Assembly: GCA_017882285.1 (NCBI GenBank)
Contig: JADGPS010000021.1
Location: 1-40,920, forward strand
From: Paludibacter sp.
GTDB lineage: Bacteria; Bacteroidota; Bacteroidia; Bacteroidales; Paludibacteraceae
Length of the DNA: 40,920 nucleotides
Reading direction: 5' to 3'
Position numbers and translations under genes: made by a program
Notes under the pieces: generated by a model
What the model saw: the letters and a program-made list of their open reading frames with translations, nothing else
Databases searched by the model: none
Told to the model about the DNA's origin: nothing
Part shown: positions 13,449 through 31,465 of the stretch, piece after piece
Layout: each line of letters starts with the position of its first letter
Numbering within the stretch: position 1 is the first letter of the stretch

Positions 13449-15926
13449 TTAATTCCCGAGATTGCAAAAAGCAGTTGGAATCTTATCACATTTCACACTG
13501 GCAATACTCGAACCGGCATTTAATTTTACACGAATTATAGCTCTGCCATTTTGCAATTCTACCACGCGGGAACCGGATGCAGTGCCAAGATTATCCATCA
13601 GTTTGCCATCGCCTGCCAATCCAAATGTTACCACATTTTTTGCATCGAGACACATTACTTTATTGGCATCAAACAATTTCACTTCAATCGTGGCGATATC
13701 GCCTGTCTGGGCAATTTTAGCCAGCGTCATTTGAACCGATTTTCCCCATTTGTCGGTTTGGTAACTTTGTTTTATTTCGTCGGTAACGGTAGTTTTTCCT
13801 TTGTGTGCAATGACTTTCAACTTATTTTCACCAGACGAATAAACGACATTCCAACGTAACCCTGCGGCAGGAAAATCCTGAGAATTGCGTTTTTTTACAC
13901 CCTGACTTTTTCCGTTAAAAATCAATTCTGCTTCATCGCAATTGGAATATACTTTTACCATTTTTTCTTCACCTTCATTTCCCCAACGAACAGGCCAGCT
14001 ATGTCCGTAAATATGAGCCATTGGCTTTTCTGTCCACCAGGACTGGAAAACATAATAAGCTTCTTTCTTCGTATCATCCCGCTCTACTACTCCTTTTTGG
14101 TTCACATAAGGAATGGGATTATCCGGCCGAACTGGCGTGGAAAAATCTTTAAAAGTCCAGAAAGCAGCTCCGGTAAGATTAGGCATGGTTTCCTGTTCTT
14201 TTAAATGCCATTCGAAGAGGTTGCAGATATACGATTCACTCCAGTCACCATCTTTCGAAACACGGGCAGCTCCGCCAAAACGCGCTGCATCTCCGTTACG
14301 TTCGTCAACTCCATCGCCTGTTTTTATAAGACTCAACGCACTGTCGGGAGTTTCTGAATGACGACCGGCATGACTGTCACCTCCCCATTCGGCATGGAAA
14401 AAATGTTTTACGGTTTTCATTTCTTTTTCAGTCATCTCTTTGTATTCGGTATAAATACCCCGATACCAGCCTGCCCAAACGGAAGGCGAATATACATCGG
14501 GAATATCTTTGGCAAAATCGCATCGACGAATGGACGTTTTACGTGACGGATCGAGTTGATGTGCCAGATTATTCAACTCTGTCATAAAATTCCTTACTTC
14601 TTTTTTATCGTAGGTTGGAAAATCGCCGGGCCAATCGTTTTCATTACCCAATCCCCATAAAATAATAGCAGGATGATTACGGTGTTGTGTAATCATGTTG
14701 GTCATCATGCTGTATGCTTGATTTTTATAGCGTTCACCACCAACACCACCACGACACCACGGAATTTCTTCCCAGGCCATAATTCCAAGAGTGTCGCATA
14801 AATTAAGCGTAATCCGTGATTGTTGATAATGACCCAACCGGATAAAGTTAGCACCCATTTCTTTTATCAGAATCATTTCGTCTCGAATTTGCTTTTCGGT
14901 CATAGCTGCAGCCACACCGGCATGGTCTTCGTGTTTGTGGGTTCCACGAATGAGTAAACGGGTTCCATTCAGCATAAACGGTCCGTTATCGGTAAATTCA
15001 TAATTCCGGAACCCAAAATGTTCAATAACTGTTTGTGTTCCGGCTTCGGTACTCAACGTTACTTTACAGGTATAAAGGTTTGGTTGTGCCGGCGACCAGA
15101 GCATTGGTTTCTTTAACAGGGAACTATAAACGGTTTTTTCGGTATCATCCGCTCCAATTTCCTGATTGTTGGTTACAATCGGTTTCCCTTTTGAATCCAA
15201 TACTTCGATTTTCAAATTTGCTTTCGATAATGTTGATTTATTGTTTGTTTTCAAAACTATATCATATTTTCCGGCAATACCTTTTGAATCCACTTCGGAG
15301 TTTATGTTTACTCTTTCAATAGATAAAGCAGGAACATATACCAGATTCAAATAGCGATATATTCCGCCGTAAATATTGAAATCAGCCAAACTGGACGGAA
15401 TCATTTCATTATCACGTGAGTTATCGCAACGGATGGAAAGAGGTACTGTTCCTTTGAAACGTTCCAATTCTGATTTATTTTGCAAAAATGCATTCACGGC
15501 ATCGGTAATATCCACGGTCCATTCGTCGTAACCACCAATATGTGAACCGACTTTTGTAGTATAAACATAAACCTCGGTTTTTTGTCCTGCACCTTCGAAA
15601 TGCAACAACGTTCTACCTAAATTAAACGGATTTTTAATTTCGAGTTGGGTTTTATACCATCCCGGTCCCTGATAATAATTTCCATTGGAATCAACTCCAT
15701 CGCTTGCATTGAAACAATGAGGCAACGTTATATCTTCCCACACAGGAACACATTCGGGATTTCCAGGTTTTACGATTGGACGAACTGCTTCCCAGGGACT
15801 GCCCATATCACTTTTCAGGAATTTCCAGTTTTCGTTCAGTCGAATTTTGTTCTCAGTTTGGGCATTTAAGCATCCTGAAATGCTCAGGATAATGATTATC
15901 AGGTTATGAATGATGCGTTTTCTCAT
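13449..15926 (-). CDS. Glycoside hydrolase family 2 enzyme (beta-glucuronidase or beta-galactosidase type)
   Basis: An exo-acting retaining beta-glycosidase of GH2. From the chosen start, signal peptide 1-23 is followed by the sugar-binding jelly roll (about 30-205), an Ig-like domain (about 210-310), the TIM barrel (about 310-600) and a C-terminal Ig-like part. The acid/base is Glu429 in WGLGNENDW and the nucleophile Glu513 in FFHAEWGGDSHAGRH. The ISGC motif could be a lipobox; cleavage after LNAQ is the alternative. I prefer the ATG giving MRKRIIHN; an ATG eight codons upstream is possible. Last gene of the locus, 37 bases behind the jelly-roll protein gene. It may remove terminal uronic acid or galactose units; family alone does not settle this. 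Confidence 0.88.
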   Translation of the reverse strand: MRKRIIHNLIIIILSISGCLNAQTENKIRLNENWKFLKSDMGSPWEAVRPIVKPGNPECVPVWEDITLPHCFNASDGVDSNGNYYQGPGWYKTQLEIKNPFNLGRTLLHFEGAGQKTEVYVYTTKVGSHIGGYDEWTVDITDAVNAFLQNKSELERFKGTVPLSIRCDNSRDNEMIPSSLADFNIYGGIYRYLNLVYVPALSIERVNINSEVDSKGIAGKYDIVLKTNNKSTLSKANLKIEVLDSKGKPIVTNNQEIGADDTEKTVYSSLLKKPMLWSPAQPNLYTCKVTLSTEAGTQTVIEHFGFRNYEFTDNGPFMLNGTRLLIRGTHKHEDHAGVAAAMTEKQIRDEMILIKEMGANFIRLGHYQQSRITLNLCDTLGIMAWEEIPWCRGGVGGERYKNQAYSMMTNMITQHRNHPAIILWGLGNENDWPGDFPTYDKKEVRNFMTELNNLAHQLDPSRKTSIRRCDFAKDIPDVYSPSVWAGWYRGIYTEYKEMTEKEMKTVKHFFHAEWGGDSHAGRHSETPDSALSLIKTGDGVDERNGDAARFGGAARVSKDGDWSESYICNLFEWHLKEQETMPNLTGAAFWTFKDFSTPVRPDNPIPYVNQKGVVERDDTKKEAYYVFQSWWTEKPMAHIYGHSWPVRWGNEGEEKMVKVYSNCDEAELIFNGKSQGVKKRNSQDFPAAGLRWNVVYSSGENKLKVIAHKGKTTVTDEIKQSYQTDKWGKSVQMTLAKIAQTGDIATIEVKLFDANKVMCLDAKNVVTFGLAGDGKLMDNLGTASGSRVVELQNGRAIIRVKLNAGSSIASVKCDKIPTAFCNLGN

Positions 15927-15963
15927 AATTTTTGAGTAATTAATGTTCATTTATGATGGATTT

Positions 15964-17064
15964 TTATAATATTAATTTGATCGTTTTTTCTGATTTTGTA
16001 GTTTTTAGTTGAATAAAATAAATTCCGTTTTTCAAACACGAAGTATCCACCTGTTTCTGATATTTTCCACTTTCCAAACTTTCATTTTGAATCAGGGTTT
16101 TGACTTTTTGACCGCCTAAATTATAAATATCAATTCCAACTGTTTCTTTTTCAGGTATATAATATTCAATTTTCAATGTTTTAGCAGTTGAATTTGGAGT
16201 TGCTTTAAATTTATTTTCATCATTCATTGAATAGGAATCTACCTTTGTCGGCGGTACTTCGTAAATTGAGAAACTATTAAACCGAACGGCTTCATCGCGC
16301 AAATCAGACGAATTCAATAAACTTCGGTAAATTCCCCATTTTGGTCTGATAAATGAATTATCGGAACGAATTGTAAGTAAATTGTTATTTGTATAGCTCA
16401 ATACCGTTGTTCCATCGCTCACTTTCTTAATTGTTATTGAATAAGTGCCTCCAACATTATTTACTTTGATACGTTCGGTGGCTTCGACCCATGTATTTTC
16501 GAATAATGATAAATTTACTGAGGTAAATTTAACGGAACTCAGACTTGAACTTTCATAATAATTTAGTTCCAGCTTGTTTGGAGTTCCTTTACGTGCTGTC
16601 AATACAAAAAGTGGATCAGATTCATCTCCTCCAACTGCTTTTACTTGATGAAGGTGCGTAAAACTTGCCGATGGTTGAAAACCAGAAGGTACTTTAAATC
16701 GCCATTTATATACAACAGTTTCGCCGGAAGTGCCTTTTAAATAAGCCGGTGAAGCATCGTATGTTTTTATTTCAACCCGTTGCCGGTCGAAATTGATACA
16801 ACGGTCATTATCAGGCGTAACATGAATGTAAAATTCAAATACATATTGACCTAAATCAGCATCCCAAACTTCTGCAATATGTCTTCCAAATAAGGGATGA
16901 ATACATTCCGGATTTTCAACCACATCGCCACCGGTTGGTGCTAAAACGCTGTTTATCAGCTCGTAGGTATTTCCGAGTCCATCGGCTTCAAGTAAAACTT
17001 GCGAAAACCCACACACTGGAAACAAAAGAAACAACAGGGCAATTGAAATTTTAATAATTCTCAT
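15964..17064 (-). CDS. Secreted jelly-roll protein with T9SS tail, candidate polysaccharide lyase
   Basis: A 366-residue protein with signal peptide (1-21, ending GFSQ), a beta-rich domain (about 25-270) and a T9SS type A sorting domain (about 285-366, with IYNLGGQKVKTLI and KNGIYFIQLK). I cannot assign a family. The domain has traits of concanavalin-A-like lyases: FDRQRVEIKTYD (Arg96, Glu98), FTHLHQVKAV (His137, His139, Gln140) and RPKWGIYRS (Tyr246) fall in the order of the RxExR, QIH and YFKAGxY motifs of PL7. These could be the catalytic and subsite residues. It lies 9 bases after the PL7 gene. Alternatives are members of other jelly-roll lyase families (PL13, PL14, PL20, PL28 types) or a non-catalytic binding protein. 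Confidence 0.6.
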   Translation of the reverse strand: MRIIKISIALLFLLFPVCGFSQVLLEADGLGNTYELINSVLAPTGGDVVENPECIHPLFGRHIAEVWDADLGQYVFEFYIHVTPDNDRCINFDRQRVEIKTYDASPAYLKGTSGETVVYKWRFKVPSGFQPSASFTHLHQVKAVGGDESDPLFVLTARKGTPNKLELNYYESSSLSSVKFTSVNLSLFENTWVEATERIKVNNVGGTYSITIKKVSDGTTVLSYTNNNLLTIRSDNSFIRPKWGIYRSLLNSSDLRDEAVRFNSFSIYEVPPTKVDSYSMNDENKFKATPNSTAKTLKIEYYIPEKETVGIDIYNLGGQKVKTLIQNESLESGKYQKQVDTSCLKNGIYFIQLKTTKSEKTIKLIL

Positions 17065-17073
17065 TTTTTATAT

Positions 17074-18132
17074 TTATTTGATAACTAACAACTTGGTAGT
17101 TTTTGAAAAAGTTTGAGATTTTAATTTGGCAAAATAAACTCCACTTGATAAATCTGAAATATCAAAAGATTGATTATAGTTATCGGCGTTTTGATATTCG
17201 TTTGAAATCAGGTTTTTAATCATTTTTCCGCTCCAATCGTAAACTTGAAGACTGACATTCGACACCGATGAAAGTTGGTAACTGACTTGTAATTTATCTT
17301 TTGCAGGATTTGGATAAATTGTAAATTGATTGATATCGAAAATTGATGAAACTTCTGTAGTTGATTTTATCAATGACAATTTGTAAAACTGATTTTGCCC
17401 GTAAATTACGGTTGGATTAGGTGGAGAAACTGAGTTTGGATTATATTGCAAATAATCGCCGGCTTTAAAGTAGTACGCATCGGTCAATGTCCAAACATCC
17501 GGTGTGTACGTTTGAGAACCGGTTGTGCCATTCACCGTGCAAGTTATGGTTCCGTTTTTCATGGTAATCGTGTATGTAATTAAATCGCCCAACGACAAAT
17601 TGTTGGCCAGCGTCACGCCATATTCAGACATATTGGTATCATTTGTTTTAAAACGCGCTTCGATATAACATTGTCCGGTTTTATAACCGGTCCAACGCAA
17701 TTTAATCATTTCCGAAACGGTGTTACTTCCATGAATTTGACCGATAATGGTTTGCGGTTTTGCCTGAGCAACAGCCAACACTTTGCATTGCGCCGTCATG
17801 TAATGTTCGGTTGGATCATTTAAAATCCAATTTGCACCTCCGGTCATTTGCCGGAATTCAACTCGTGGATACGTTGAACCGCTGGTTGTGCCTCCATTGC
17901 TGGGAACTTTACAAACAATTGAACCATCAGTCGCATCAGTGTAAAACAAATTACTTGTATAGCCATTGGTTAAATCGGTTGCCATTATTTCTTTGAAATT
18001 ATTGTTTGCATCAATTGTCTGCAATTTCCACGCACTCAAATCGAAATTTGAACCGGGAGTTAGCAATGGATTTAATGCTACTAATTTTAAACTCAGGAGC
18101 AAAATGGACGATATCAAAATTTGTTTTTTCAT
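17074..18132 (-). CDS. Polysaccharide lyase family 7 (alginate lyase type) with T9SS tail
   Basis: A 352-residue secreted lyase. Signal peptide 1-20; PL7 jelly roll about 25-255; T9SS type A sorting domain 268-352 (FTIYPNPAKDKL, SSGVYFAKLKS). The three PL7 motifs are all present: YPRVEFRQ (Arg90, Glu92, Arg94), IIGQIHG (Gln132, His134) and AYYFKAGDYLQ (Tyr221, Lys223, Tyr227). His134 and Tyr221 or Tyr227 would act in beta-elimination. QIH rather than QVH is often linked with poly-G or mixed cutting, but some PL7 members cut glucuronan, so the substrate stays open. The T9SS tail means it is released or fixed on the cell surface, so it probably makes the first cuts. Confidence 0.92.
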   Translation of the reverse strand: MKKQILISSILLLSLKLVALNPLLTPGSNFDLSAWKLQTIDANNNFKEIMATDLTNGYTSNLFYTDATDGSIVCKVPSNGGTTSGSTYPRVEFRQMTGGANWILNDPTEHYMTAQCKVLAVAQAKPQTIIGQIHGSNTVSEMIKLRWTGYKTGQCYIEARFKTNDTNMSEYGVTLANNLSLGDLITYTITMKNGTITCTVNGTTGSQTYTPDVWTLTDAYYFKAGDYLQYNPNSVSPPNPTVIYGQNQFYKLSLIKSTTEVSSIFDINQFTIYPNPAKDKLQVSYQLSSVSNVSLQVYDWSGKMIKNLISNEYQNADNYNQSFDISDLSSGVYFAKLKSQTFSKTTKLLVIK

Positions 18133-18203: not shown

Positions 18204-19439
18204 CTACAATTTAAAGGATTTAGCCCAACTCATCACATTCGCTGGTACACGTTTAAAGAACAATTCATTGGCCATAAATTCCATATAAGGTTGAGTATGT
18301 TTCCAAAATGTATAATAACCTTCACACAAATAATTTAATCCCGATTCGCCGTTCGATGTTTTGATAATTCTGTTTTTAGGACATTCGCCATTACAAAGTT
18401 TCTTAAACTCGCACTGACGGCATTGTATTGGTAAAGTATCTCGCTTGTTTGCTCCAAAACGAAGTTGTTTTTGGGAAAAAACCATTTCGTAAATAGTATG
18501 CGTTTTAATGTTTCCGATTTTATATTCCGGAAAAACAAAATGATCGCATGCATACACATCTCCGTTAAACTCCATTACCGTTGCATGACCACAGGTCTCG
18601 CCAAAAATACACACTCCGGGCATTTGACCTACTGTGCCTGCTAAAGCGGCATCAAAAAGCTGAATATAATACTTACCGACATCATTTTTTATCCATTCAT
18701 CAAAAATAGTTATATAAAATTCTCCGAATTTCTTTGCATTAACGGTCATTGGTGATAAAACTGCATCGTCACTTCCGTCGGGTGGCAATAGTGTCAATCC
18801 GTCGGTTCTGGTTTTTGAAACCTGTTCCACAATAGGAGAAAACTGCATATAAGCAGTACCAATTTCCTTGAAAAAGTTATAAATTTCAAGCGGATAATCT
18901 ACATTATAGCTGTTAATTACAGAAAGCGTATTAAACTCAACTTCATGTTTTTGCAATAATTCTATGCCATGCATTACTTGTTCGAAAGTACCTTTACCTC
19001 CTTTGTTTTTACGGTAAACATCGTGACAATGTTCCGGTCCATCAATGGAAATGCCAATCAGGAAATTATTTTCTTTGAAAAACTTACACCACTCGTCATT
19101 AAGTAAAGTTCCATTGGTTTGCAAGGTATTATCAATTTTTCTGCCTCGACCGTATTTTCTCTGAAAGTTAAGCACCTTACGAAAAAAAGATAAATCCCGC
19201 AACAGAGGTTCGCCACCATGCCATGTAAACAAAACTTCGGGGACAGGTTGAACCTGGATATAACTTTCAATATATTTTTCAAGCGTTTCATCGCTCATTT
19301 GTAGGCTTTTGCGATTTCCATAAAGCTTTTCCTTCTCTAAATAATAACAATACGAACAATTCAAATTGCAACTCGAACCGATTGGTTTTGCCATAACATA
19401 AGTTGGCATGGAAAGTGGGTTGAATGCAATAGTCTTCAT
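18204..19439 (-). CDS. Anaerobic sulfatase-maturating enzyme (radical SAM, SPASM domain)
   Basis: A 411-residue cytoplasmic enzyme that turns the active-site Ser or Cys of sulfatases into formylglycine without oxygen. The radical SAM motif CNLNCSYC (Cys24, Cys28, Cys31) binds the first [4Fe-4S] cluster. The C-terminal SPASM part has the cysteines of two more clusters, including CGHATVMEFNGDVYACDHF, CRQCEFKKLCNGECPKNR and a late Cys in YLCEGYY. The same protein type was named ChuR in Bacteroides. Its position next to a serine-type sulfatase fits its role, since Ser-type sulfatases can only be matured by this route. It is separated from the sulfatase by 145 bases. Confidence 0.95.
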   Translation of the reverse strand: MKTIAFNPLSMPTYVMAKPIGSSCNLNCSYCYYLEKEKLYGNRKSLQMSDETLEKYIESYIQVQPVPEVLFTWHGGEPLLRDLSFFRKVLNFQRKYGRGRKIDNTLQTNGTLLNDEWCKFFKENNFLIGISIDGPEHCHDVYRKNKGGKGTFEQVMHGIELLQKHEVEFNTLSVINSYNVDYPLEIYNFFKEIGTAYMQFSPIVEQVSKTRTDGLTLLPPDGSDDAVLSPMTVNAKKFGEFYITIFDEWIKNDVGKYYIQLFDAALAGTVGQMPGVCIFGETCGHATVMEFNGDVYACDHFVFPEYKIGNIKTHTIYEMVFSQKQLRFGANKRDTLPIQCRQCEFKKLCNGECPKNRIIKTSNGESGLNYLCEGYYTFWKHTQPYMEFMANELFFKRVPANVMSWAKSFKL

Positions 19440-19584: not shown

Positions 19585-20943
19585 TTATTCGGCCAACTTT
19601 TTATTTTTTTTTGCTTCTTTTTTTGCTTTTTTTGCATGTCTGCCATCACCACCTCCTTCGTCATGATATCCGGCAGCCGGATTCAATCTGTCCATTTCAG
19701 CCTGTAGCGTTTTGCGTGCTTCAATGGCAGCGGGATTTTTGGTATCAGCGGTGACAAGAATTTCTTCGAAAGGAGCTTTGCTCATATCAAACAATTCACC
19801 CGATTGATTCAGTTTCCAACCGGCATTTCGCACCCAATAATTGTTGGCAAGTTGTACAAAAACCGAAGTGCGCGGATTCCCTTTTTCACCATGAATTTGG
19901 GCATTAAAGCTTTGACCATCCAGCATTTTATCTTTCGGAAGTGTTGTACCGGTAATTTCAGCAAAAGTGGGAAGAAAATCGGATGAACTAATCAAATCGT
20001 GCGAAACTTTTCCAACTGGTGTTACGCCCGGCCAATAAACAATTAACGGTTCAAGACTGCCACCTTCCTCCATTTTACCTTTTTGCCCGATAAGTCGGCG
20101 ACCACCAATGGTAGCCCAATCTGCTTTTCCACCAGCAGTTCCGTTATCACTGAAAAAAACCAGAATGGTTTTGTCACTCAATCTTAATTTTTCAAGTTCT
20201 TTTCTTAATTTTCCAACCAATTTATCCATATAGTTGATGTTATCTTTATAAATGGTTTTGAGGTCAAAATTGTTAATTGGGTTGCTGTCGGGAGTTGGCA
20301 GAATTTTTTCGTGAACTTCCGACAAGGAATAATACACAAAAAACGGTTTGTTTTTGTTTTTAGCTAAAAACTCAACCAAATGTTTGTGCATTAAATCCGG
20401 CATGTATTCGTGGTCATTCAGGACTAATTTTTCACCATTTAACACATAGGTTTTGCCATTTGCCTGTGTGTTCCAGTAAATTCCACTTCCGGTAAATCGT
20501 AGGTAATCATCAAATCCAAACTCAGCAGGTCCGAGCGGTAATTGTCCCCATTTTCCAATTGATGCTGAAGCGTAACCGGCTTGTTTTAAATAAGTTGGAA
20601 TAAATGTTTCAATATCCGGACTCATTTTTCCGGTGGCATCCTGATTGGTTGCTCCGGTGCGGAAAGCATATCTGCCCGACATAATTACTGCCCGCGATGG
20701 ACCGCTCAACGGAGCTGCATAAGCATTTGTAAAACGAAGTCCTTGTGACGCAAGTTTGTCAATGTTTGGAGTTTTATAATTATCTGATCCATTGCAACTT
20801 ATTTCTGGATAACCTAAATCGTCAGCCAAAATGAAAATGATGTTTGGTTTTTCCGAAGTTTTTTTCTCAGTTTGTGAAAAACATGACAATGAAACAATAC
20901 TTGCCAAAGTCAGGTTTAAACATTTAAATATTTTTTGTATCAT
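19585..20943 (-). CDS. Serine-type sulfatase, S1 family
   Basis: A 452-residue exported sulfatase of the formylglycine type. N-terminal signal (1-24; Cys21 may be a lipidation site, though the lipobox is not canonical). Metal ligands: Asp41/Asp42 in ILADDLGY and the later VFFSDNGTAGGK. The modified residue is Ser80 in LSGPSRAVIMSGR, a Ser-x-Pro-Ser-Arg motif needing the anaerobic maturase encoded next to it. GKWG stands where many S1 enzymes have GKWH. The C-terminal 25 residues are His/Gly then Lys-rich (HAKKAKKEAKKNKK), an unusual basic tail. It would remove a sulfate ester from the glycan or its fragments; position and sugar cannot be told. Confidence 0.92.
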   Translation of the reverse strand: MIQKIFKCLNLTLASIVSLSCFSQTEKKTSEKPNIIFILADDLGYPEISCNGSDNYKTPNIDKLASQGLRFTNAYAAPLSGPSRAVIMSGRYAFRTGATNQDATGKMSPDIETFIPTYLKQAGYASASIGKWGQLPLGPAEFGFDDYLRFTGSGIYWNTQANGKTYVLNGEKLVLNDHEYMPDLMHKHLVEFLAKNKNKPFFVYYSLSEVHEKILPTPDSNPINNFDLKTIYKDNINYMDKLVGKLRKELEKLRLSDKTILVFFSDNGTAGGKADWATIGGRRLIGQKGKMEEGGSLEPLIVYWPGVTPVGKVSHDLISSSDFLPTFAEITGTTLPKDKMLDGQSFNAQIHGEKGNPRTSVFVQLANNYWVRNAGWKLNQSGELFDMSKAPFEEILVTADTKNPAAIEARKTLQAEMDRLNPAAGYHDEGGGDGRHAKKAKKEAKKNKKLAE

Positions 20944-22226: not shown

Positions 22227-23444
22227 CTATTTAATTGGGCTTGTCAAACCTAACCAAAGAACAGGGTTTTTCAGGGGCATATTCCGTTTGCTCTCGTCGC
22301 TTGGAAAGTCGGCACTGCATTTTTCCCAAATCGAAATCCATTCGGGTTGTTGCTGAATAATGGCGGCAAAAAACATAAACGGCCGGCGTCCGGGTTGTTC
22401 TTCCCAATGTGAAATGTCTTTTTTGAACGGCCAGTTGTTTTTGTCAATCACATATGGTTTTATGTAATCTACGCCTTTTTGTATGCCACGTCCGTCAGCC
22501 AAGGTGAAATTCCAGCCATTAAATTCATTGTCAGTCAAAAGCCAGGTCAATGTAGCAAAACCATCCAAACAAAAAAGCGAATAAGAATAAGGTTTTGTAC
22601 GCTCAATTTCGAGCGGCAAACTTCCATCCTGCGCCATTTGAGTTGGCAATAAAATTTCCACATAATGCTTCCTGCATTTTTCCAGAATGGTTTTATCGTC
22701 GACAAAACTGGCATAAGCCGCCACCTGCGCATGCCACCAGGTTCCATGATTATTTTTGGCATTCATTTCGTCAATGCCATATTGGTGCGTGTTCAGCCAG
22801 GTCATAAAAGCGGTAAACCACTGGTGAATGGTTTCACTATCATTTTTCGACAAAAATGGTGATTTTTCCAGAATCTGAACTGATTTTGTAACTTCTATAA
22901 ATGGAATTCCATCAATAATTCCAATTCCACGACCGGTATTCACGCCTTTAATTGCCTGAGCATAAAGGAAATTTGGATTCATAATCGTTTCCGGATTCAC
23001 AAACCATGCTTTCAAATGTTTCACGGCTGTTTCGGCATAAATGGTTTTTCCGGTCAATAAATAGGCTGAAGTCAACGTGCCCACAACCCAAGAAAACTGA
23101 CTGATGGCCTGACGGTGAAAATCAAAATTAGCGGGATTATTCAGTCCATCTTTGCGAATATACGGACCGGTTGGATTTGCCGGATCGGGCCACCAATAAG
23201 TGGCTTCGGAATAATAATCGTGAATGCCACCGGCACTTCTGGGGCAAGTAAATGAAGTGACCGTAACCGGTTTTTCAAGTAAAAAACTATCGGCCAAACG
23301 AATAATTCGTTGTTTTTCAGTCTGAATTATGTTCTGTTTGATTGAATTAAGCGAAGTTTGTTTATTTTCTTTTTTCGAAAAAGCAGATGTAGAAAATCCA
23401 AAGGCAATAAGTAATGTAAGTGTCAGTATTTTAGTGCTTTTCAT
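22227..23444 (-). CDS. Alginate lyase superfamily protein (PF05426 type, PL38-like)
   Basis: A 405-residue periplasmic protein with signal peptide (1-23, ending SAFS) and an (alpha/alpha)-barrel. The superfamily motif NNHGTWW (Asn231/Asn232, His233) is complete, as is the N-terminal TCPRSAGGIHDYYSEATYWWPDP block, and ERTKPYSYSLFCLDGF near 285-300 supplies tyrosines expected in the active site. I compare it with PL38, whose members cut alginate or beta-1,4-glucuronan, but a PL5-related group is also possible. In the operon it stands between PL6 and GH88, so it would act on imported oligouronates. Confidence 0.82.
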   Translation of the reverse strand: MKSTKILTLTLLIAFGFSTSAFSKKENKQTSLNSIKQNIIQTEKQRIIRLADSFLLEKPVTVTSFTCPRSAGGIHDYYSEATYWWPDPANPTGPYIRKDGLNNPANFDFHRQAISQFSWVVGTLTSAYLLTGKTIYAETAVKHLKAWFVNPETIMNPNFLYAQAIKGVNTGRGIGIIDGIPFIEVTKSVQILEKSPFLSKNDSETIHQWFTAFMTWLNTHQYGIDEMNAKNNHGTWWHAQVAAYASFVDDKTILEKCRKHYVEILLPTQMAQDGSLPLEIERTKPYSYSLFCLDGFATLTWLLTDNEFNGWNFTLADGRGIQKGVDYIKPYVIDKNNWPFKKDISHWEEQPGRRPFMFFAAIIQQQPEWISIWEKCSADFPSDESKRNMPLKNPVLWLGLTSPIK

Positions 23445-23474: not shown

Positions 23475-25868
23475 TTATTTTCTCAATCCGATGTTTGAGC
23501 CGTCAACTGCTTTACCTGTTAAAGGCGAATTGCCTGAAAGTGAATAAGTTTTTGGTTCAAAAAGCGGATTTTCAAAAGTTGGATTGGTCAATCTGGCACC
23601 TTTGATTAATTCAGGTTTTGGGCAATTATATAAGCAGCATCTTGACATTTTATCGTATAAACCCCAAAGTAAAACAGTAGATTTTGCCGTAGAATTTGAA
23701 AAAATGGAATTGTTGATTTTTACGAATATAATTCGTGACAATTTCAAAATCGATTCTTTTGCCATATTTCCAACCGAATCAAAAACGCAATGATTGATTA
23801 AAAGTGAACCACCAATGGTCGATTCGTCAAAACCGCCACGGTAATAATCGAGCGCATAATCCGATAAATTTGCAAAAACAGAATTACTAAAAATCACTGT
23901 TTCAGCATTGTACCGGCCATCTTCTTTTTCTTTATGAAGATTAATTCCGCTGTACGAATCGCGAATCACTGAATTTTTAATTACAATTGAATCCGCCATT
24001 GTGCAGTACAAACTATTAAAGACTGAACCACCGGCAACGCTAAAATCATAAATATCACAATTGTCGATGAACAACGAATAACCAAGCGCATGTTCGCCGG
24101 TTGCAAAAACATATTTCGGAGTTTTTGCCAGTTTATTATCGCCTTCGCCATCAATTTTCACACCTTTAAACCGGACGTAAACATCCGAAGTCAATTCAAA
24201 TAAAGGATCTTCAACATTTTCTGATTTCATTTTAATCACCGGTTTAGTAGCTGATTTTGAAGAAGATGTGATGGTTAGGCTTTTAGTGAAAACAATTTTT
24301 TTAGTCAGAATATGTTCGCCTTCGCCCAACATCAAAATATCACCTGCTTCGGCTTTATTAACCGCTTCGAACAAATTATCAGTTCCGGCTTCTACTTTTA
24401 TGGTTTTACCTTTTGCAAATTCTTTTTTAACAGGAGTTGTGTCGGGTTTGTACCATCTTGGACCGCAATTATTAGCACTCGCCATTTCAGTTTTAGCTTT
24501 TTCATCTTTATCCTGAAATGCACCAACAACAGGGTTTGTACGCGGTTGTCCCATAATGTCGGTTTTGATAAATGGAACTTTTTGAGCCGGTGTATTTGCA
24601 TAAACCATTTCGATATCAGGCATCTGTGATTTCAAAATTTCACCCGAAATAACACCTTTGTCAGAAGTCAATCCTTTTTTACTAATCATTAAATTATTCC
24701 CGAACGTAATTCCATCTGTTTTATCGTAACTTTTAATTAAAGCCGTATCATTTGGGCAATAAACTATATTATTGATAATCTGCGTGTTTTGTGGAGTTAC
24801 AATTCGGTTTCGTTCGGAAACACCGACGCAGAAATTCCATGGTAAAGTGCAATCGACAAACGTATTGTTGGCAAGAATTACATTTTTTACAGGTGCATAA
24901 CCGCTCGCAGGTGAATTGGGAATACCGTTCATAATGGTTAATGGCGAACGGAATTCATCGCCACGAAGTTTGTAGAAAAAGTTATTGTAAATCTGGTGGC
25001 CTTCGTTGATAACGCGTACACCACCGGTAAATGGCAATCCATTGCCAATAAACCAGTTTCCGGAAACAGTGGCACGATTTCCATGGCGAAGAACCAAACT
25101 ACCTTCCGATTCGAAAATAGTATTATTTATAAATTTGTTGTCACTTGATTTGTTTGATATAATTTCAACTTCTCCATTACAACGTTCAAAAAAATTTCCT
25201 TCAACAACTGTTTCGGAACTAAAAGTGCAAACTTCGCTGGTTCCAAGACGCATTGATTCACCGCCATTTGAACCCAAGCGTGGACGAGGACCGAAATAAT
25301 TGCGGTGAATCCAATGTTTATTGTGAATGCTGTTCGAGTCATTCGGGCAAATAATCAAGGTGGTTCCTTCATTCGTTTTTCCTCCAAAATAGCAATATTC
25401 CACCGTGTTGTGCTGTCCCCATAAAGCCACCCAATTGTCAGAGGTTTCCCGGTAAGGCTGATTAAATTTGTCGATGACGCAATTCTTTACAACACAATTA
25501 TATGCATAATCGGTGTTCGAAGTTTTGAAATCGATGACAGTTTTTCCGGGAGTATACCCTTTTGTAAAAATTAAACCCGAAACCTGCAGCCAATTCCCTG
25601 AAATTGACAAGGATGATTCTCCTTCGATAAATACTTTTCCGGCAGTTTCAGCCTTCAGAAATATAAACTTTCCTTTTTGTCCTTTTCCGGTGAATACAAT
25701 CTGTGCATCTTTCCAAACTCCATTAGCCATAACGATACTGTCGCCGGGAAGAACAGTTTTTATTTTTTCGTTTAGTTGATTCATATTCAATACCTTATAG
25801 CCTTTAGCCACAAGCGTTGATGATGCAATTAATGCAAAGACGATTAGCAAATTCAATTTCATTTTCAT
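23475..25868 (-). CDS. Polysaccharide lyase family 6, two beta-helix domains
   Basis: A lyase of about 797 residues with signal peptide (about 1-21 from the chosen ATG, MKMKLNLLIVFALI). The first parallel beta-helix (about 25-460) carries the PL6/chondroitinase-B active site: Asn-Gly-Glu-x-Glu calcium ligands in RCNGEVEIISNK, then Lys240 and Arg261 (LVLRHGNR) 21 residues apart, the same spacing as in chondroitinase B and AlyGC. The second beta-helix (about 480-797) is the added domain seen in AlyGC-type exolytic alginate lyases. A GTG 30 codons upstream is open but gives a non-signal leader crossing the hairpin terminator, so I reject it. An ATG two codons later is equally good. Acts on alginate or, less likely, dermatan-like chains. 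Confidence 0.9.
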   Translation of the reverse strand: MKMKLNLLIVFALIASSTLVAKGYKVLNMNQLNEKIKTVLPGDSIVMANGVWKDAQIVFTGKGQKGKFIFLKAETAGKVFIEGESSLSISGNWLQVSGLIFTKGYTPGKTVIDFKTSNTDYAYNCVVKNCVIDKFNQPYRETSDNWVALWGQHNTVEYCYFGGKTNEGTTLIICPNDSNSIHNKHWIHRNYFGPRPRLGSNGGESMRLGTSEVCTFSSETVVEGNFFERCNGEVEIISNKSSDNKFINNTIFESEGSLVLRHGNRATVSGNWFIGNGLPFTGGVRVINEGHQIYNNFFYKLRGDEFRSPLTIMNGIPNSPASGYAPVKNVILANNTFVDCTLPWNFCVGVSERNRIVTPQNTQIINNIVYCPNDTALIKSYDKTDGITFGNNLMISKKGLTSDKGVISGEILKSQMPDIEMVYANTPAQKVPFIKTDIMGQPRTNPVVGAFQDKDEKAKTEMASANNCGPRWYKPDTTPVKKEFAKGKTIKVEAGTDNLFEAVNKAEAGDILMLGEGEHILTKKIVFTKSLTITSSSKSATKPVIKMKSENVEDPLFELTSDVYVRFKGVKIDGEGDNKLAKTPKYVFATGEHALGYSLFIDNCDIYDFSVAGGSVFNSLYCTMADSIVIKNSVIRDSYSGINLHKEKEDGRYNAETVIFSNSVFANLSDYALDYYRGGFDESTIGGSLLINHCVFDSVGNMAKESILKLSRIIFVKINNSIFSNSTAKSTVLLWGLYDKMSRCCLYNCPKPELIKGARLTNPTFENPLFEPKTYSLSGNSPLTGKAVDGSNIGLRK

Positions 25869-25913
25869 TGTTTTTTTAGAGAATATTGGATAAAGAAGTA
25901 ACTCTAATTGATG

Positions 25914-25950
25914 AAAAAAATCCACTGTTGAATAATCCTCCAACAGTGGA
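25914..25950 (-). terminator. Internal terminator/attenuator of the PUL operon
   Basis: TCCACTGTTG (25921-25930) and CAACAGTGGA (25941-25950) form a perfect 10-base stem with a 10-base loop; on the minus strand seven Ts follow immediately. It lies between the small lipoprotein gene and the PL6 gene, so it could let susC, susD and the lipoprotein be made in excess over the enzymes. Confidence 0.85.
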
Positions 25951-25963
25951 ATTCCCACTAAAT

Positions 25964-26569
25964 TTATTTAATGATTGCCGACTTAAACGTCGTTTTGGCA
26001 GCGGTCAATAAATCAATTGAGGTTTTAACCTGACGGTCAATAGTAGTTAAAGCGTCTCTGCTTGTTGTAGCAGTTGCAATTGCTGTGGTGAAAACAGTTT
26101 TTGCGTCTTGTCCAACATTTCCTACTGAAGTTCCTACCAATGTTGAACTATTCAAAGTAGTTGCTGCAACAATCGAATCGTTCAGTGGACGCCTGTCGGA
26201 AATATTAATTTTGCCCCAAAAAGCTTTACCAGGAGTGGCAAGATTCGTGTTAGCAACTATCAATTCGGCAATTGTAACACCCGGTTTAACAATTGCGGCA
26301 GAATCGGCTTTTAATGCAGTCAGATATGTAGCCTTGTAAGTTGCAAATGAAGTAGTTGACACAGGTGTAAAATTTCCTTTATCGTACCCAACTATGCAAT
26401 TATCAACTTTTGTTCTTTCGGAAGCAACAAATTGGCTAAACTGAAGTATATACTGATCTACTGTTTTTGGAGTTACAATAACCGGATCTTCTACTGTACA
26501 AGAGCTCAATCCAACTCCAAAAAAGATAGTTAGTAAAAACATCAGGAATATTTTTTCAATATATTTCAT
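25964..26569 (-). CDS. Small lipoprotein of the SusCD unit, possible glycan-binding protein
   Basis: A 201-residue lipoprotein with lipobox LSSC (Cys24). I do not recognise a family. Residues about 35-200 are predicted helical, rich in Ala, Thr and Ser, with a repeated pattern of short helices; the stretch LNDSIVAATTLNSSTLVGT recalls FIVAR-type helical bundles, a weak likeness. It sits directly behind susD (19 bases), the place where many PULs encode a surface glycan-binding protein, and before the internal terminator, so it belongs to the uptake module. Its lack of beta-sandwich (PKD or Ig-like) character is unusual for that place. Confidence 0.7.
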   Translation of the reverse strand: MKYIEKIFLMFLLTIFFGVGLSSCTVEDPVIVTPKTVDQYILQFSQFVASERTKVDNCIVGYDKGNFTPVSTTSFATYKATYLTALKADSAAIVKPGVTIAELIVANTNLATPGKAFWGKINISDRRPLNDSIVAATTLNSSTLVGTSVGNVGQDAKTVFTTAIATATTSRDALTTIDRQVKTSIDLLTAAKTTFKSAIIK

Positions 26570-26588: not shown

Positions 26589-28142
26589 TTAATAACTTGT
26601 ATTTTGAGGAATTACTAAGTCGTTATTTGTGTCAATTTCCTGTTGAGGAATTGGTAACAAAAGACGATCTGTTGTAAAATTGCCTGATGTGGGAGGTAAA
26701 ATAGGGCTGTATAATGAATATAATAATGTCCAGTCAGTAACAAATATACTTGTTTTCAGTATATTGATTGCTTTTTCCGGATCTCCATAAGCTTTTCCCA
26801 TACGCAATAAATCGAACCAACGTTGATTCTCGAATGCAAGTTCCTTTCGACGTTCAGTATATACTGAATCTAACGCCTCTGTTTTTGAATCAAAGCTGAT
26901 ATATGGACTAACGCCCGCCCTCGATCTGATCAGATTTACTTCTTGTAAAGCTGCTGGAAAATTATTTTGTTGAGCAAGAACTTCTGCATAAAGCAATACT
27001 ATATCAGCATAGCGAATTTCAATCCAATCATTTTCGCCTTGTAAAGCTTGTGTCATATTTGGATCAATGTATTTGGATATATACTGAATGTTTGCAGTAG
27101 TTGATTTCTTCCATATTCTGAAACTAGCATCTGATCGGGTATCTTTTGGATCTGCACTTAACAGACTCATAATATCGGGAGTTGGATTATTGTTTCCAAT
27201 TGGTGTCCCGATTTTTAAGAACTGATTGGCAGAACCTTCCGGAGCAAATGTTCCCCAAAAGGGTGATCCAATACCTAAAGCTCCACCTTTATATCGAACA
27301 GCAAAAATGATTTCTTTATTCATCTCATTTGTTATATTGAAAACGTTCGCAAACGCGCTGGTCGAAGCTCCTTTATCGGTTAACAGTCCATGTTGTGGAG
27401 CAGCCAAAACTTCTTCCAATAAACCTTTCGCTAAGGTTAAATTAGCATCTCCTCCAATCATCATATATGTTTTTGCCAATAAACTTTTTGCAGCCCATTT
27501 GGTAATTCTACCTACATCATTAGTTGAATATGAAACAGGTAATTGATTTGCCGCTTTAATTAGATCAGGGATAATGATTTCGTTATAGATTTCTGAAACC
27601 GGAGAACGTGTAATCGTTTTCGCCTCAGTTGGTCCAATAACCTTAGTAACTTTGAACATATCACCCCAAAGATTTACCAATGTATAGTAATGAAAAGCTC
27701 TGATAAACAATAACTCACCTTCGTATTGTGCACGTTGCGTTTCTATAGAAACATACGTTTGACCGGAAGTTACAAAAGGCAATATGGCATTAACGTTGGA
27801 GATATTCTGAAAAAACTTATACCAGAAATCGCGAAGTCCTGTTTGACTTGGGGAAGTCCTGAAAAATTTCAAATCACAGATGTCGGCACGATCAGTTGTA
27901 CCCGTTCCAAAACTTGATACACAGGTGTTATCACTTCTTATTTCGGTAAATCTCCATTCATCATCTTTGATATTTGACATACCGGCATAACAACCCATTA
28001 TGCCTTGATTGATACGGGTTGGGGTTGTGTAGAAATCTACCTGAGTGAGTGCTGACTCCGGTTTGTTTGTAATTAAATCCTCACAAGCGGAGAAAGTAAT
28101 CAAGCCAAACAATGCTATTATAATTCCAATTTTATTTTTCAT
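26589..28142 (-). CDS. SusD/RagB family nutrient-binding lipoprotein
   Basis: A 517-residue outer-membrane lipoprotein (lipobox FSAC, Cys20) of the SusD/RagB family, which caps the SusC channel and captures oligosaccharides at the cell surface. The N-terminal TPR-rich part has FYTTPTRINQGIMGCYAGM and GELLFIRAFHYYTLVNLWG, the C-terminal part DWIEIRYADIVLLYAEVLAQ and ERRKELAFENQRWFDLLRMG, all SusD hallmarks. It is 77 bases behind susC. The ligand is presumably the uronic-acid oligosaccharide made by the secreted lyases. Confidence 0.95.
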   Translation of the reverse strand: MKNKIGIIIALFGLITFSACEDLITNKPESALTQVDFYTTPTRINQGIMGCYAGMSNIKDDEWRFTEIRSDNTCVSSFGTGTTDRADICDLKFFRTSPSQTGLRDFWYKFFQNISNVNAILPFVTSGQTYVSIETQRAQYEGELLFIRAFHYYTLVNLWGDMFKVTKVIGPTEAKTITRSPVSEIYNEIIIPDLIKAANQLPVSYSTNDVGRITKWAAKSLLAKTYMMIGGDANLTLAKGLLEEVLAAPQHGLLTDKGASTSAFANVFNITNEMNKEIIFAVRYKGGALGIGSPFWGTFAPEGSANQFLKIGTPIGNNNPTPDIMSLLSADPKDTRSDASFRIWKKSTTANIQYISKYIDPNMTQALQGENDWIEIRYADIVLLYAEVLAQQNNFPAALQEVNLIRSRAGVSPYISFDSKTEALDSVYTERRKELAFENQRWFDLLRMGKAYGDPEKAINILKTSIFVTDWTLLYSLYSPILPPTSGNFTTDRLLLPIPQQEIDTNNDLVIPQNTSY

Positions 28143-28219
28143 TTTTCATTTTATGTTTTAACCGTTTATTTAAAACTATTAAATTCCGATTGTTGTAACT
28201 TATTTTTCTAATTTAACGA

Positions 28220-31200
28220 CTAAAAGTTAATATCGACACCCAACGTAAATGTTCGGTTGAGCGGGAAAACACCCCGTTGGTAACCATCAACTAATGGATA
28301 TGCATTTGAATAGGGTCCACTTGTTCTACGAGCTTCAGGATTAACTCCTTTATAACCTGGTGACATTAAGTAGATTAGATTTTGTGCTGAAAAATAAGCC
28401 CTGAATTGATTGATTTTTAAAGATTTTACAATTTCCTGAGGAATTTTATATCCGAAAGTAAAATCACGTAAAGCTGCATAAGAGCCATCCTGAATTGCGT
28501 AGTCAGTCAGCAAAAGATCACTACCCGATGTGGTATTAGAATAAACAGTTTTACTATCACCCGGGAACATTGGACTTACGTAACGATTGTTTGTGTAGGC
28601 GGTATTATAACGTAAATTCTCATTATAATTTAAATTTCCGTCGATAAGTTGAACTCCTTGTACGCCTTGTATCAGGAAACTAAGATCAAAATCATTGTAT
28701 GTAAAGGTATTTGTAATCCCATAGGTGAAATCTGGAAATGGTTTCCCAATTACAACACGGTCACTTGGATCAATTTTATTATCGCCATTAGTATTTACTA
28801 CCTTCAATCCTCCTAATATTGGAGCAAATTTGGTATAGTTAAATAGAACGCCATTTGCATCGGTAAGTGCTTTTGCGGCAGCTACTTCTTCAAGCGTTGT
28901 ATAAACACCGGCTGATTTATATCCAAAAAATTGAATGGATGGTTGGCCTACAATTGCTCTGTAGACTTCACTTCTTTCACCAAAATTATCCTGATATTGT
29001 CTGTCACCGTAATTAAGAAGTGTGTTTTTATTCGTAGATAAATTACCGGTTGTTTTCCAGGTAAAACCTTTTGAATCAATATTTGTTGTAGTAAGTTCAA
29101 TTTCAACTCCCTGATTGTTTACTTTACCTATATTATTCCAAAAAGTTTGATGTCCGGTGATATACATTGCAGGTTGAAGAAGTAACAGTTGAATGGTGTT
29201 TGAATTGTAATATTCAACGGTAATATTCACTTTGCTGTTAAACAATCCAAAGTCTAAACCATAGTTTGCTTCTTCAGTTTGTTCCCATGTAATATCAGGA
29301 TTTCCTAAAAATGAATTGTTTGAAGCCATACCTGCAATAAGATTCCCATTACCAGAACCGGTATTGTAATTGGTCGTGTTAATAGTATTCATGTACGAAT
29401 ATTGAGGAATGTTATTATTCCCGGTCAATCCATAGCTGGCACGTATTTTAAGGTTTGATAGCCAATCAAACTTTTTCAGAAAACTTTCTTCGGATGCACG
29501 CCATCCGATTGAACCTGCCGGGAAAGTTCCCCATTTATGACCTTCCGCAAATTTTGAACTACCATCAGAACGTAAACTTCCTGATAATAAATATTTACCT
29601 TTATAAGCATAAGTCAGACGTCCAATAAATGATTCCATTGCCTCGGTATAATAAAACGAAGTGGTTCCGTTAATTGAAGGACTATCCATAATCAGAGCCG
29701 ATGCAAGATTGAATGAAAGCATTTGTTCATCAGGAAAACCTGTTGCAACAATTTGATTGAATTTATTGCCAGTCTGTTGCAAAGTAAAACCTATAATTGC
29801 TCCAATTTCATGATCACCAATTTTCTTGTTATAATTCAATGTGTTTTCTGACAATAATTCGGTGTGTAAAGTGGTTTGGCGTGTCAATTGATTTGGCACA
29901 CCGGCTTTATTTGCCGAAGTTTGTTCTTTTTTGTTATATTCTTTGTAGTCGGTATATGCTCCATTTGATGTTTTAAACTGGAGACCCGGCAATATATTAA
30001 TTGCAATGTAGGCATTACTTTGCATCCTGTAATCATCTGTAATTACACTTGTCCGTTGACGAATAGAAGTTGGTGTTTGATTGCTGGAACTAAATGGATT
30101 TACTGCTGTTACTTCCCAAGTTTCTCCGTTTAATCCTATTCCACTCATATTTAAGCCTAAGAAATCTGAGGCCTGGGCATAATCTCCGGCAATTTTTCCT
30201 GTTAATGCTGCAGTAGCTGCATTATGTCGAACCGGCAACCACGATGGATAACGGGTATAATCAGTTAAATCATTTACAGGCTTTTCTTGTCTGCTATATG
30301 TTGGTGCAATATTGATTCCAATAGTAACATTTTTCGATAAATTAATGTCCATTTTTGCTCGCAGTGTATATTTATCGTAATTACTATTTCTCATTATCCC
30401 ATCTTCGCTGCTATAATTCCCTGATAAAAAGTATTTTATGTTTTTATCCCCGCCTGCTGCACTTAACTGATAATTCTGAGACGAACCATTTTGACGTAAT
30501 CCTTCATCTAACCAGTTTGTTGGTTGGTCAACGTAATATTTCTGAATTAAATAGGCTGCCTGTTCACCGGTAGTAATCAGATTAAATTTCATCGTTGCAG
30601 CCGTTCCATCTACTGCAGGATCTTTAATACGTAAAGCAGCTTCATTATATAATAGTTGAGTATATTGATCGGTATTCATCATATCAGGAAGTTTTAATGC
30701 GGTACGAATTCCGGAGAACATTTTGAAATTGTATTTTGGTTTAGTGGCATTTCCACTTTTTGTAGTTACCAATATTACACCACCTGCAGCACGTGATCCG
30801 TACATAGCTGCAGAAGCAGCATCTTTAAGTACTTCAATTGATTCAACATCCCCCATACTTACTGATGATAAACCATCAGGAATTGGAAACCCATCAACAA
30901 CAATAAGTGGAGATATAGCTGCACTAATAGAACCCATACCACGAACACGAATTATGGGAGCTTCACCAGCTTCGGGATCAACATTTTGAATTTGAACGCC
31001 TGCCAACTTTCCTTGTAAAGCCTGACCAATACTGGAAACCGGGATTTCATCCAGTTTCTCTCCTTTAATAGAGGATACAGCTCCGGTCAAATGCGATTTC
31101 TTTTGTGTTCCATAAGCAACTACAACAACTTCATCAATGTTTTTAGTTTCTTCATCAAGTGATAAATTAATTTGCGTATTGGTTCCAACTGTTTTTTCAA

Positions 31201-31465
31201 CACTTTTATAACCGATATACGAAAAAACTAATGCCGATGTAGCATTCGGCACTTGAATAGTATATTTACCATTCGAATCGGAAATTGTTCCGGTCTTTTC
31301 TCCCGAAACTTTAATATTTACACCGATTAAGGGATCTTTGTTGCTGTCAGTGATACTGCCGCTTACTTTTATCTGGGCAAATACCCCTACAGTGTTCATG
31401 CATAGAAGAATGAACAACCAGGAAAAATTCCTTAGGAACTGTTTACTGTTTCTGTTTTTTTTCAT
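28220..31465 (-). CDS. SusC/RagA family TonB-linked outer-membrane channel
   Basis: A 1081-residue TonB-dependent transporter. Signal peptide 1-30 (ending GVFAQ); carboxypeptidase-D-like regulatory domain about 32-112 (VSGSITDSNKDPLIGVNIKV); plug about 115-230 (EVVVVAYGTQKKSHLTGAVS, RGMGSI, VVDGFPI, GSRAAGGVILVTTKSG); then a 22-strand barrel ending in TFTLGVDINF with the terminal Phe usual for outer-membrane insertion. It imports oligosaccharides with SusD as lid. No STN domain is present, which fits the absence of an anti-sigma partner. First gene of the locus; two palindromic sites about 195-225 bases upstream may control it. Confidence 0.96.
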   Translation of the reverse strand: MKKNRNSKQFLRNFSWLFILLCMNTVGVFAQIKVSGSITDSNKDPLIGVNIKVSGEKTGTISDSNGKYTIQVPNATSALVFSYIGYKSVEKTVGTNTQINLSLDEETKNIDEVVVVAYGTQKKSHLTGAVSSIKGEKLDEIPVSSIGQALQGKLAGVQIQNVDPEAGEAPIIRVRGMGSISAAISPLIVVDGFPIPDGLSSVSMGDVESIEVLKDAASAAMYGSRAAGGVILVTTKSGNATKPKYNFKMFSGIRTALKLPDMMNTDQYTQLLYNEAALRIKDPAVDGTAATMKFNLITTGEQAAYLIQKYYVDQPTNWLDEGLRQNGSSQNYQLSAAGGDKNIKYFLSGNYSSEDGIMRNSNYDKYTLRAKMDINLSKNVTIGINIAPTYSRQEKPVNDLTDYTRYPSWLPVRHNAATAALTGKIAGDYAQASDFLGLNMSGIGLNGETWEVTAVNPFSSSNQTPTSIRQRTSVITDDYRMQSNAYIAINILPGLQFKTSNGAYTDYKEYNKKEQTSANKAGVPNQLTRQTTLHTELLSENTLNYNKKIGDHEIGAIIGFTLQQTGNKFNQIVATGFPDEQMLSFNLASALIMDSPSINGTTSFYYTEAMESFIGRLTYAYKGKYLLSGSLRSDGSSKFAEGHKWGTFPAGSIGWRASEESFLKKFDWLSNLKIRASYGLTGNNNIPQYSYMNTINTTNYNTGSGNGNLIAGMASNNSFLGNPDITWEQTEEANYGLDFGLFNSKVNITVEYYNSNTIQLLLLQPAMYITGHQTFWNNIGKVNNQGVEIELTTTNIDSKGFTWKTTGNLSTNKNTLLNYGDRQYQDNFGERSEVYRAIVGQPSIQFFGYKSAGVYTTLEEVAAAKALTDANGVLFNYTKFAPILGGLKVVNTNGDNKIDPSDRVVIGKPFPDFTYGITNTFTYNDFDLSFLIQGVQGVQLIDGNLNYNENLRYNTAYTNNRYVSPMFPGDSKTVYSNTTSGSDLLLTDYAIQDGSYAALRDFTFGYKIPQEIVKSLKINQFRAYFSAQNLIYLMSPGYKGVNPEARRTSGPYSNAYPLVDGYQRGVFPLNRTFTLGVDINF

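Follow-up and report, generated by a model that had tools for sequence, protein, structure and literature searches.

The DNA window analyzed here, a contig of 40,920 nucleotides (JADGPS010000021.1, assembly GCA_017882285.1) from Paludibacter sp., harbors on its minus strand a polysaccharide utilization locus (PUL) of a known kind, with intact reading frames. On balance, we consider that this SusC/SusD-based locus probably serves the breakdown of a polyuronate with beta-linked glucuronate, for which the glucuronan (beta-1,4-polyglucuronate) type is the best candidate, and that an added cassette would let it handle a sulfated form. The enzymes are of known types; their combination, and specifically that of PL38 and PL6 polysaccharide lyases (PLs) with a GH88 glycoside hydrolase (GH) and a sulfatase, was not found described in the open-licence PubMed Central literature, in line with the initial annotation of this DNA, which had not recognized the gene set as a described one. 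Nor did that literature yield a Bacteroidota PUL for glucuronan or a match to 'sulfated glucuronan' and its variants; glucuronan breakdown turned up there as single lyases only. If the target is indeed glucuronan or a sulfated form of it, the locus would provide a Bacteroidota pathway extending from the transporter to 2-keto-3-deoxygluconate (KDG), and would point to an uncharacterized sulfated polyuronate. The analysis also yields a testable uronate regulon, marked by the palindrome TTGGTNNACCAA and linking several PULs to kduI, as well as a group of lyases that have no solved relative by sequence.

Organization of the locus

The window is one entire contig of a draft genome (G000; 3.18 Mb, 143 contigs, 98.3% complete). 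Eleven open reading frames (ORFs) follow each other from 31465 to 13449 on the minus strand with gaps of only 5-145 bases between neighbors, and they therefore form an operon-like run. The susC and susD genes are adjacent and the genes for carbohydrate-active enzymes lie in the same direction, which is the arrangement by which a PUL is recognized. The operon is flanked by housekeeping genes, for a formyltransferase (11782-12759) on one side and for methionyl-tRNA synthetase (33532-35589) on the other. From 5' to 3', the products are:

28220..31465, minus strand: SusC-type TonB-dependent transporter (Pfam; close relatives 65-73% identical, L066 42%)
26589..28142, minus strand: SusD-type surface lipoprotein (Pfam; close relatives 59-80% identical, L066 35%)
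25964..26569, minus strand: 201-aa helical lipoprotein without a Pfam family (accompanies SusD in 8/38 loci)
23475..25958, minus strand: PL6 lyase (Pfam, PDB match, motif; likely true start 25868)
22227..23444, minus strand: PF05426 lyase of the PL38 type (Pfam, PDB match; active-site signature unlike that of the PL38-type lyases on contig C106)
20968..22167, minus strand: GH88 unsaturated glucuronyl hydrolase (Pfam, motif; 3wiw is the nearest solved relative)
19585..20943, minus strand: S1 sulfatase, serine type, SGPSR (PF00884; no other PF00884 match in the genome)
18204..19439, minus strand: anaerobic sulfatase-maturating radical S-adenosylmethionine enzyme, or maturase (NCBIfam; no other genome protein above cut-off)
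17074..18132, minus strand: PL7 lyase with a type IX secretion system (T9SS) sorting tail (Pfam, PDB match, motif)
15964..17064, minus strand: PF14099-type polysaccharide lyase with a T9SS tail (Pfam below curated cut-off; fold)
13449..15950, minus strand: GH2 of the beta-glucuronidase type, NQKG (Pfam, 6d7j match, motif)

The minus-strand gene set of the initial annotation is borne out, in that every gene named there is an uninterrupted ORF where it had been placed and is backed by Pfam or NCBIfam. Two genes of the operon had been missed, those for the PF14099-type lyase (15964-17064) and the lipoprotein (25964-26569). Six enzymes were inspected for the catalytic motifs expected of them (GH2, GH88, PL38, PL7, PL6 and the sulfatase), and all six retain these. 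The PL6 ORF as listed opens with GTG, and an ATG at codon 31 (25868) precedes a stretch resembling a signal peptide, so that the latter appears to be the likelier start.

GH2 and GH88, probable glucuronate-directed enzymes

The GH2 scores 1161 bits against 6d7j, a named beta-glucuronidase, and 1072 against the next PDB entry. An NQKG motif and the catalytic NEN are found in all ten aligned sequences (the window protein and nine relatives of at least 50% identity), and the N-x-K motif is presumably the uronate-binding mark of beta-glucuronidases; judged from its sequence, the enzyme is of the beta-glucuronidase type. The GH88 assignment is likewise firm in Pfam (45.7 bits against a cut-off of 26.6), and the THD and IID motifs, which we take to hold the two catalytic Asp residues, are conserved in 10/10 sequences. 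To our knowledge, plain alginate should require neither a GH88 nor a GH2 of this type. Among PDB chains, the GH88 matches 3wiw with 421 bits and the other seven chains found with no more than 183. The 3wiw structure, we believe, is that of Phep_2830. This protein is a GH88 that acts in the heparin/heparan pathway (PMC10154612; here and below, papers are cited from excerpts of their text). By this kinship, the window enzyme probably belongs with the GH88 proteins for 1,4 linkages and would suit the products of glucuronan and heparosan equally well.

The initial annotation had proposed a glucuronate-rich polyuronate rather than plain alginate. This proposal gains from the beta-glucuronidase-type GH2, from the lack of a PL17 in the operon, and from the presence elsewhere in the genome of an alginate-type set with a PL17-like protein. 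The same annotation had also named glucuronomannan, which loses ground, as Pfam matched no mannosidase in the operon.

The lyases and the lipoprotein

The top PDB matches of PL6, PL7 and PL38 are all named alginate lyases. The PL7 scores 97 bits with alginate lyase A1-II' and 56 with the glucuronan lyase 7nde. Glucuronan lyases are found in each of the families PL38, PL7 and PL20, and PL38 includes two enzymes each for alginate and for glucuronan, and one that degrades hyaluronan/chondroitin (PMC13027841). The known glucuronan lyases, which include a PL20 from Trichoderma reesei, a PL7 from Trichoderma parareesei and the PL38 CUL-I, are single enzymes, in contrast to the whole PUL found here.

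The PF14099-type lyase falls slightly below its curated Pfam cut-off (27.4 versus 29.9 bits), and the family is recognized in 28/29 members of the lyase group. Searching the PDB found no solved relative by sequence, PL13 structures included, and a profile search at E 10 or better gave two sequences only, one matching the T9SS tail and the other by chance. The predicted model adopts the fold common to PL13, PL20 and PL7, including that of PL20 2zzj, with PL13 heparinase I ranking first. As profile comparison with the window-type PL7 found no similarity either (probability 1.7%), the link to PL13, PL20 and PL7 is one of Pfam assignment and fold. Overlong ORFs of the PF14099 lyase and PL38 (618-635 and 786-793 aa) occur in L036:13533-15437, L064:9983, L065:9878, L064:7639 and L065:2095, where the prefix L denotes a related locus, and suggest extra domains.

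The 201-aa lipoprotein has no Pfam match, and none of the PDB matches of its model reaches E 0.001. Its weak matches, to small helical modules and CAMP factors, were not used for function. The protein would fit the role of a glycan-binding accessory.

Comparison with related loci

A pattern scan for the PF14099 lyase across a collection of species genomes gave 38 loci, nearly all in metagenome bins of Bacteroidota, the rest coming from three bins of Ignavibacteria, one of Neomarinimicrobiota and a single named strain. The first search for relatives had mixed in matches to T9SS tails, and only those to the catalytic region were pursued. A gene was counted if 40% or more of the window protein was matched with an identity of 30% or more; the counts are lower bounds, because flanks do not exceed 10 kb and contigs are often cut short. 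Three pairs of loci come from the same genomes (L054/L056, L069/L083 and L073/L074), and the loci are thus not independent genomes. With L081 and L083 failing the coverage rule, the lyase was counted in 36 loci, PL6 in 13, GH2 and SusD in 10 each, GH88 in 9, the lipoprotein in 8, PL38 and SusC in 7 each, and the sulfatase and PL7 in 3 each; the maturase was found in none. Bins titled Rhizobium sp. and Porphyromonas cangingivalis (L068 and L064) carry these genes too, which may reflect mislabelling or faulty binning.

SusD and the lipoprotein occur together in eight loci (L049, L050, L051, L053, L056, L057, L064 and L079), which also hold PL6 (7/8), GH88 (4/8), PL38 (4/8) and GH2 (3/8). Within these short flanks, often curtailed by contig ends, sulfatase, maturase and PL7 were found in 0/8. 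The order in L079 is SusD, lipoprotein, PL6, PL6, PL38, GH88, PF14099 lyase and GH2; in the window, sulfatase, maturase and PL7 sit between GH88 and the PF14099 lyase. The three genes therefore look like a cassette inserted into a core. Their G+C content does not mark them as foreign, at 0.363-0.393 compared with 0.346-0.408 for the remaining genes. In L047 and L055 a PL7 adjoins the PF14099 lyase, and in L074 it is nearby, with GH2 some genes further on, which suggests that the window merges pieces of two arrangements.

Esterases are also found among the relatives, of the BD-FAE type in L046, L049 and L050 and of the SASA type in L046 and on contig C106 of the window's own genome (the prefix C marks such contigs). 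They could fit O-acetylated polyuronates, and acetylated alginate is equally possible. A further protein of about 600 aa recurs in the PF14099-lyase loci (L046:4472-6385; 10 members in 8 of 21 clustered loci). It carries a T9SS tail in the three members scanned, is otherwise without a Pfam family, and is possibly an unrecognized enzyme or binding protein.

The sulfatase and its maturase

The sulfatase belongs to the serine type of S1, having both PF00884 and the S-x-P-S-R motif as SGPSR. In the PDB it comes closest to carrageenan sulfatases, but the scores of 147-158 bits are too low to assign a subfamily; sulfatases of glycosaminoglycan loci belong to subfamilies such as S1_9, S1_11, S1_15 or S1_27. 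It is the sole PF00884 match of the genome, and the neighboring maturase (NF010308, 637 bits with a cut-off of 484; TIGR03942, 502 bits with a cut-off of 349) is the only protein to pass TIGR03942, for which the three other matches, all on C98, stay at 51 bits or below. Among 393 genomes of the order, close relatives of the sulfatase (72% identical, E 1e-100 or better) occur in two besides G000. Both belong to one genus, one of them is also the source of L063, and in both the gene adjoins the PF14099 lyase, PL38 and PL6, which ties the sulfatase to loci of this kind. The relatives outside the window number four, of which L047 and L052 were found via the lyase and are hence not independent. The motif residue is serine in L047 and L052 and cysteine in L063 and L099, the last two having four sulfatases each. 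The sulfated target envisaged by the initial annotation is plausible, given that the only PF00884 match and the only maturase above cut-off lie side by side; it seems not to be the core target, since the sequenced flanks of the eight relatives show no sulfatase.

A palindrome shared by uronate genes

Two copies of a palindrome lie upstream of susC:

31677..31688, no strand: palindrome TTGGTCGACCAA, likely operator, ~211 bases upstream of susC
31661..31672, no strand: palindrome TTGGTTTACCAA, second likely operator, ~195 bases upstream of susC

Matches to TTGGTNNACCAA number two in the window, compared with 0.09 expected, and two or more were seen in 1 of 100 shuffles. The genome as a whole has 12 sites, compared with 3 for the reversed pattern. 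Two precede the window operon and two the alginate-type operon on C106. One on C24 precedes kduI (5-dehydro-4-deoxy-D-glucuronate isomerase), which is followed by a short-chain dehydrogenase/reductase (SDR), and one on C130 lies between uxaC (glucuronate isomerase) and a KDG-kinase-like sugar kinase that remains under every cut-off. C63 has one before a SusC gene and one before an unnamed ORF. The match inside an ORF on C43 is probably no operator. The three remaining matches (C48:19897, C61:380 and C83:6550) belong to a repeated element, TGCCGCTTGGTTTACCAAGAA, and are probably not operators either. The distribution over an alginate-type set, kduI and the uxaC/KDG-kinase-like pair suggests that the window locus probably belongs to a uronate regulon marked by TTGGTNNACCAA. 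The presence of the KduI isomerase in such a regulon favors glucuronate-type unsaturated ends.

Twenty of the related loci, chosen as PUL-bearing and lying on 19 contigs (L036 and L037 share one), contain 34 sites in 345,622 bases and none of the reversed pattern; 11 loci have a site and 9 have none. With the first ATG of every ORF counted as its start, each of the 34 has an ORF start no more than 450 bases downstream, a figure uncorrected for gene density. A site precedes SusC in L037, L049, L051 and L057, and none does so in L056 and L064. In L037 a GntR/FCD regulator gene adjoins susC, and a relative occupies the equivalent place in L049. The only match in the window's genome is at C143 34619-35341 (72% identical), away from the operon. 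Among NCBIfam models it comes nearest to NanR, GlcC and LldR and then, more weakly, to UxuR and ExuR, all below cut-off; the palindrome resembles what we take to be the UxuR/ExuR operator. In Zobellia, alginate genes are controlled by the GntR-family repressor AusR (PMC8286568), so that regulation alone cannot tell glucuronan from alginate.

A second SusC/SusD locus, on C63, encodes an 822-aa protein (L096:6563-9028) with 3-keto-disaccharide hydrolase and PF05426 lyase-like domains. The susC gene that is preceded by a TTGGTNNACCAA site lies further along this contig.

A proposed route and the points against it

In the pathway that we favor, the T9SS-exported PL7 and PF14099-type lyases would cleave the polymer outside the cell, and SusC/SusD, perhaps helped by the 201-aa lipoprotein, would take up the fragments. 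PL6 and PL38 would then trim the imported fragments, leaving the unsaturated end residue to be removed by GH88 and the saturated glucuronate ends by the GH2 beta-glucuronidase. The unsaturated monomer would enter metabolism via KduI and the KDG-kinase-like enzyme, and free glucuronate via UxaC. The GntR/FCD regulator is predicted to act at the TTGGTNNACCAA palindromes. The sulfatase-maturase-PL7 cassette, between GH88 and the PF14099 lyase, would allow a sulfated version of the polymer to be used as well. Of this scheme, the genes present, their motifs, the insertion seen by comparison and the spread of the palindromes are observed; the substrates, cellular locations and regulatory steps, binding of the palindromes by the GntR/FCD protein among them, are predictions. 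A bolder proposal, which we regard as rather unlikely, is that the locus takes up and degrades a naturally sulfated, as yet undescribed polyglucuronate, and that its PF14099-type lyase, which bins of Bacteroidota, Ignavibacteria and Neomarinimicrobiota also carry in their loci, is the first of a new PL family specific for glucuronan.

Several observations weigh against a glucuronan-type target or its sulfated form. With eight relatives lacking sulfatase, maturase and PL7, sulfation looks like an add-on of the window variant rather than a property of the core target. The same operator stands before the alginate-type set on C106, which weakens a clean split from alginate. None of the genome's 18 SusD matches is on C49 or C106, and in L079 homologous PL38, PL6 and PL17 genes come two genes further on after the core; a single SusC/SusD pair may therefore serve both systems, an argument for a mixed diet or for a polymer of mixed composition. 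Finally, a Verrucomicrobiota alginate degrader has both PL38 and GH88, with lyase genes that form no canonical PUL, and the authors, in the excerpt cited, give the GH88 a role on alginate oligomers (PMC13274419). PL38 and GH88 are also both mentioned in PMC9163818.

Alternative substrates

The strongest of the alternatives, though we think it distinctly less probable than a glucuronan-type target, is that the locus is the importing half of an alginate system, or of one for mixed mannuronate/guluronate/glucuronate chains. Its SusC/SusD would serve the alginate-type set, with GH88, GH2 and sulfatase handling minor glucuronate or sulfated parts. That set begins on C106 with a SASA esterase, two PL38-type lyases, a gene without assignment and one end of a PL6; C49 opens with the other PL6 end, followed by a PL17-like protein (PF05426 plus Hepar_II_III), a major facilitator superfamily transporter and an SDR. 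The contigs likely join within a single PL6 gene, as the two ends cover profile positions 16-193 and 178-387. The lack of SusD on both contigs, the common palindrome and the alginate lyase names among the PDB matches all favor this alternative, as do the alginate-type PL38 genes within a few genes after the core in L046, L049 and L079, the last with a PL17 relative. The window operon shares with Bacteroidota alginate loci (PL6 and PL17, optionally PL7 and PL38) a SusC/SusD operon with PL6, PL7 and PL38-type lyases. It differs in having GH88, the beta-glucuronidase-type GH2, sulfatase, maturase and the PF14099 lyase, and in what it lacks. PL6 and PL17 together mark alginate loci (PMC5966431, PMC13377030); the operon has PL6, and the genome's only Hepar_II_III protein is the PL17-like one on C49. 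Pfam likewise identified among the operon ORFs no SDR reductase for the unsaturated monomer, as alginate loci have, the SDRs being on C49 and C24. Moreover, the active-site signature NNHGTWWHAQ of the window PL38 clade is unlike the NNHGTAFDVQ of the C106 lyases, and a GH2 of the window kind, found in 10 of the 38 loci, should be unneeded for alginate.

A glycosaminoglycan (GAG)-like target of the heparosan/heparan or hyaluronan type, also named in the initial annotation, is in our view improbable. Here, the lyases would produce unsaturated disaccharides, GH88 would split these, and the sulfatase would remove one sulfate. The lyases of the heparin/heparan and chondroitin PULs of Pedobacter heparinus and Bacteroides thetaiotaomicron belong to PL8, PL12, PL13 and PL21, as opposed to PL6, PL7 and PL38 in the window. 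PL8, PL12 and PL21 are typical of GAG loci, and the operon has no Pfam match to any of them (for PL8 the search covered the operon). The PF14099 lyase model ranks heparinase I first, and yet the protein has no sequence match to PL13 structures; nor does the genome have a Hepar_II_III protein apart from the PL17-like one. The absence of a hexosaminidase is uninformative, as such systems would require none. The heparin/heparan and chondroitin PULs do resemble the window in their combination of lyases, S1 sulfatases and a GH88 near 3wiw (layout in PMC10154612). Each of two characterized heparin/heparan systems has three S1 sulfatases (PMC10154612), compared with the single one here and with 0/8 among the SusD and lipoprotein loci. 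GAG lyases also exist in PL35 and PL38 (PMC13027841). The Roseihalotalea indica GAG PUL (PL8, PL35 and PL38), likewise a Bacteroidota locus, employs a PL38 that cuts hyaluronan and, weakly, chondroitin sulfate, and PL6, PL7 and GH88 are unmentioned in the excerpt of that paper (PMC13027841).

A branched sulfated algal heteropolysaccharide (ulvan, glucuronomannan or fucoidan) is highly improbable: alpha-glucuronomannan is indeed the predicted target of one type of PUL with sulfatases, GH88 and GH2 (PMC6298971), but no mannosidase, rhamnosidase, fucosidase or xylosidase was found among the 11 operon ORFs, nor among 30 chosen ORFs, a part of those present, of the other loci from this genome and its relatives.

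Other features of the window

Two hairpins are cited for their stem length and position only, as terminator-like sites number 16 compared with 14.0 expected:

25921..25950, minus strand: hairpin of 12 pairs, then a T-run; lies after the lipoprotein gene and before PL6, and may act as a partial terminator
13395..13422, minus strand: hairpin of 11 pairs with a T-run, directly 3' of GH2; possible operon terminator

The former separates susC, susD and the lipoprotein gene from the enzyme genes, and may reduce expression downstream. Promoter predictions were not used, being at shuffled level (70 found, 69.1 expected). A heparan acetyltransferase-like gene at 32217-33407 was set aside, as it lies past the palindromes upstream of susC and has a weak Pfam match (26.2 bits against a cut-off of 22). 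Close to the contig end, a GH10 fragment at 40168-40752 (profile positions 102-278 of 311) may represent a truncated or split xylanase gene.

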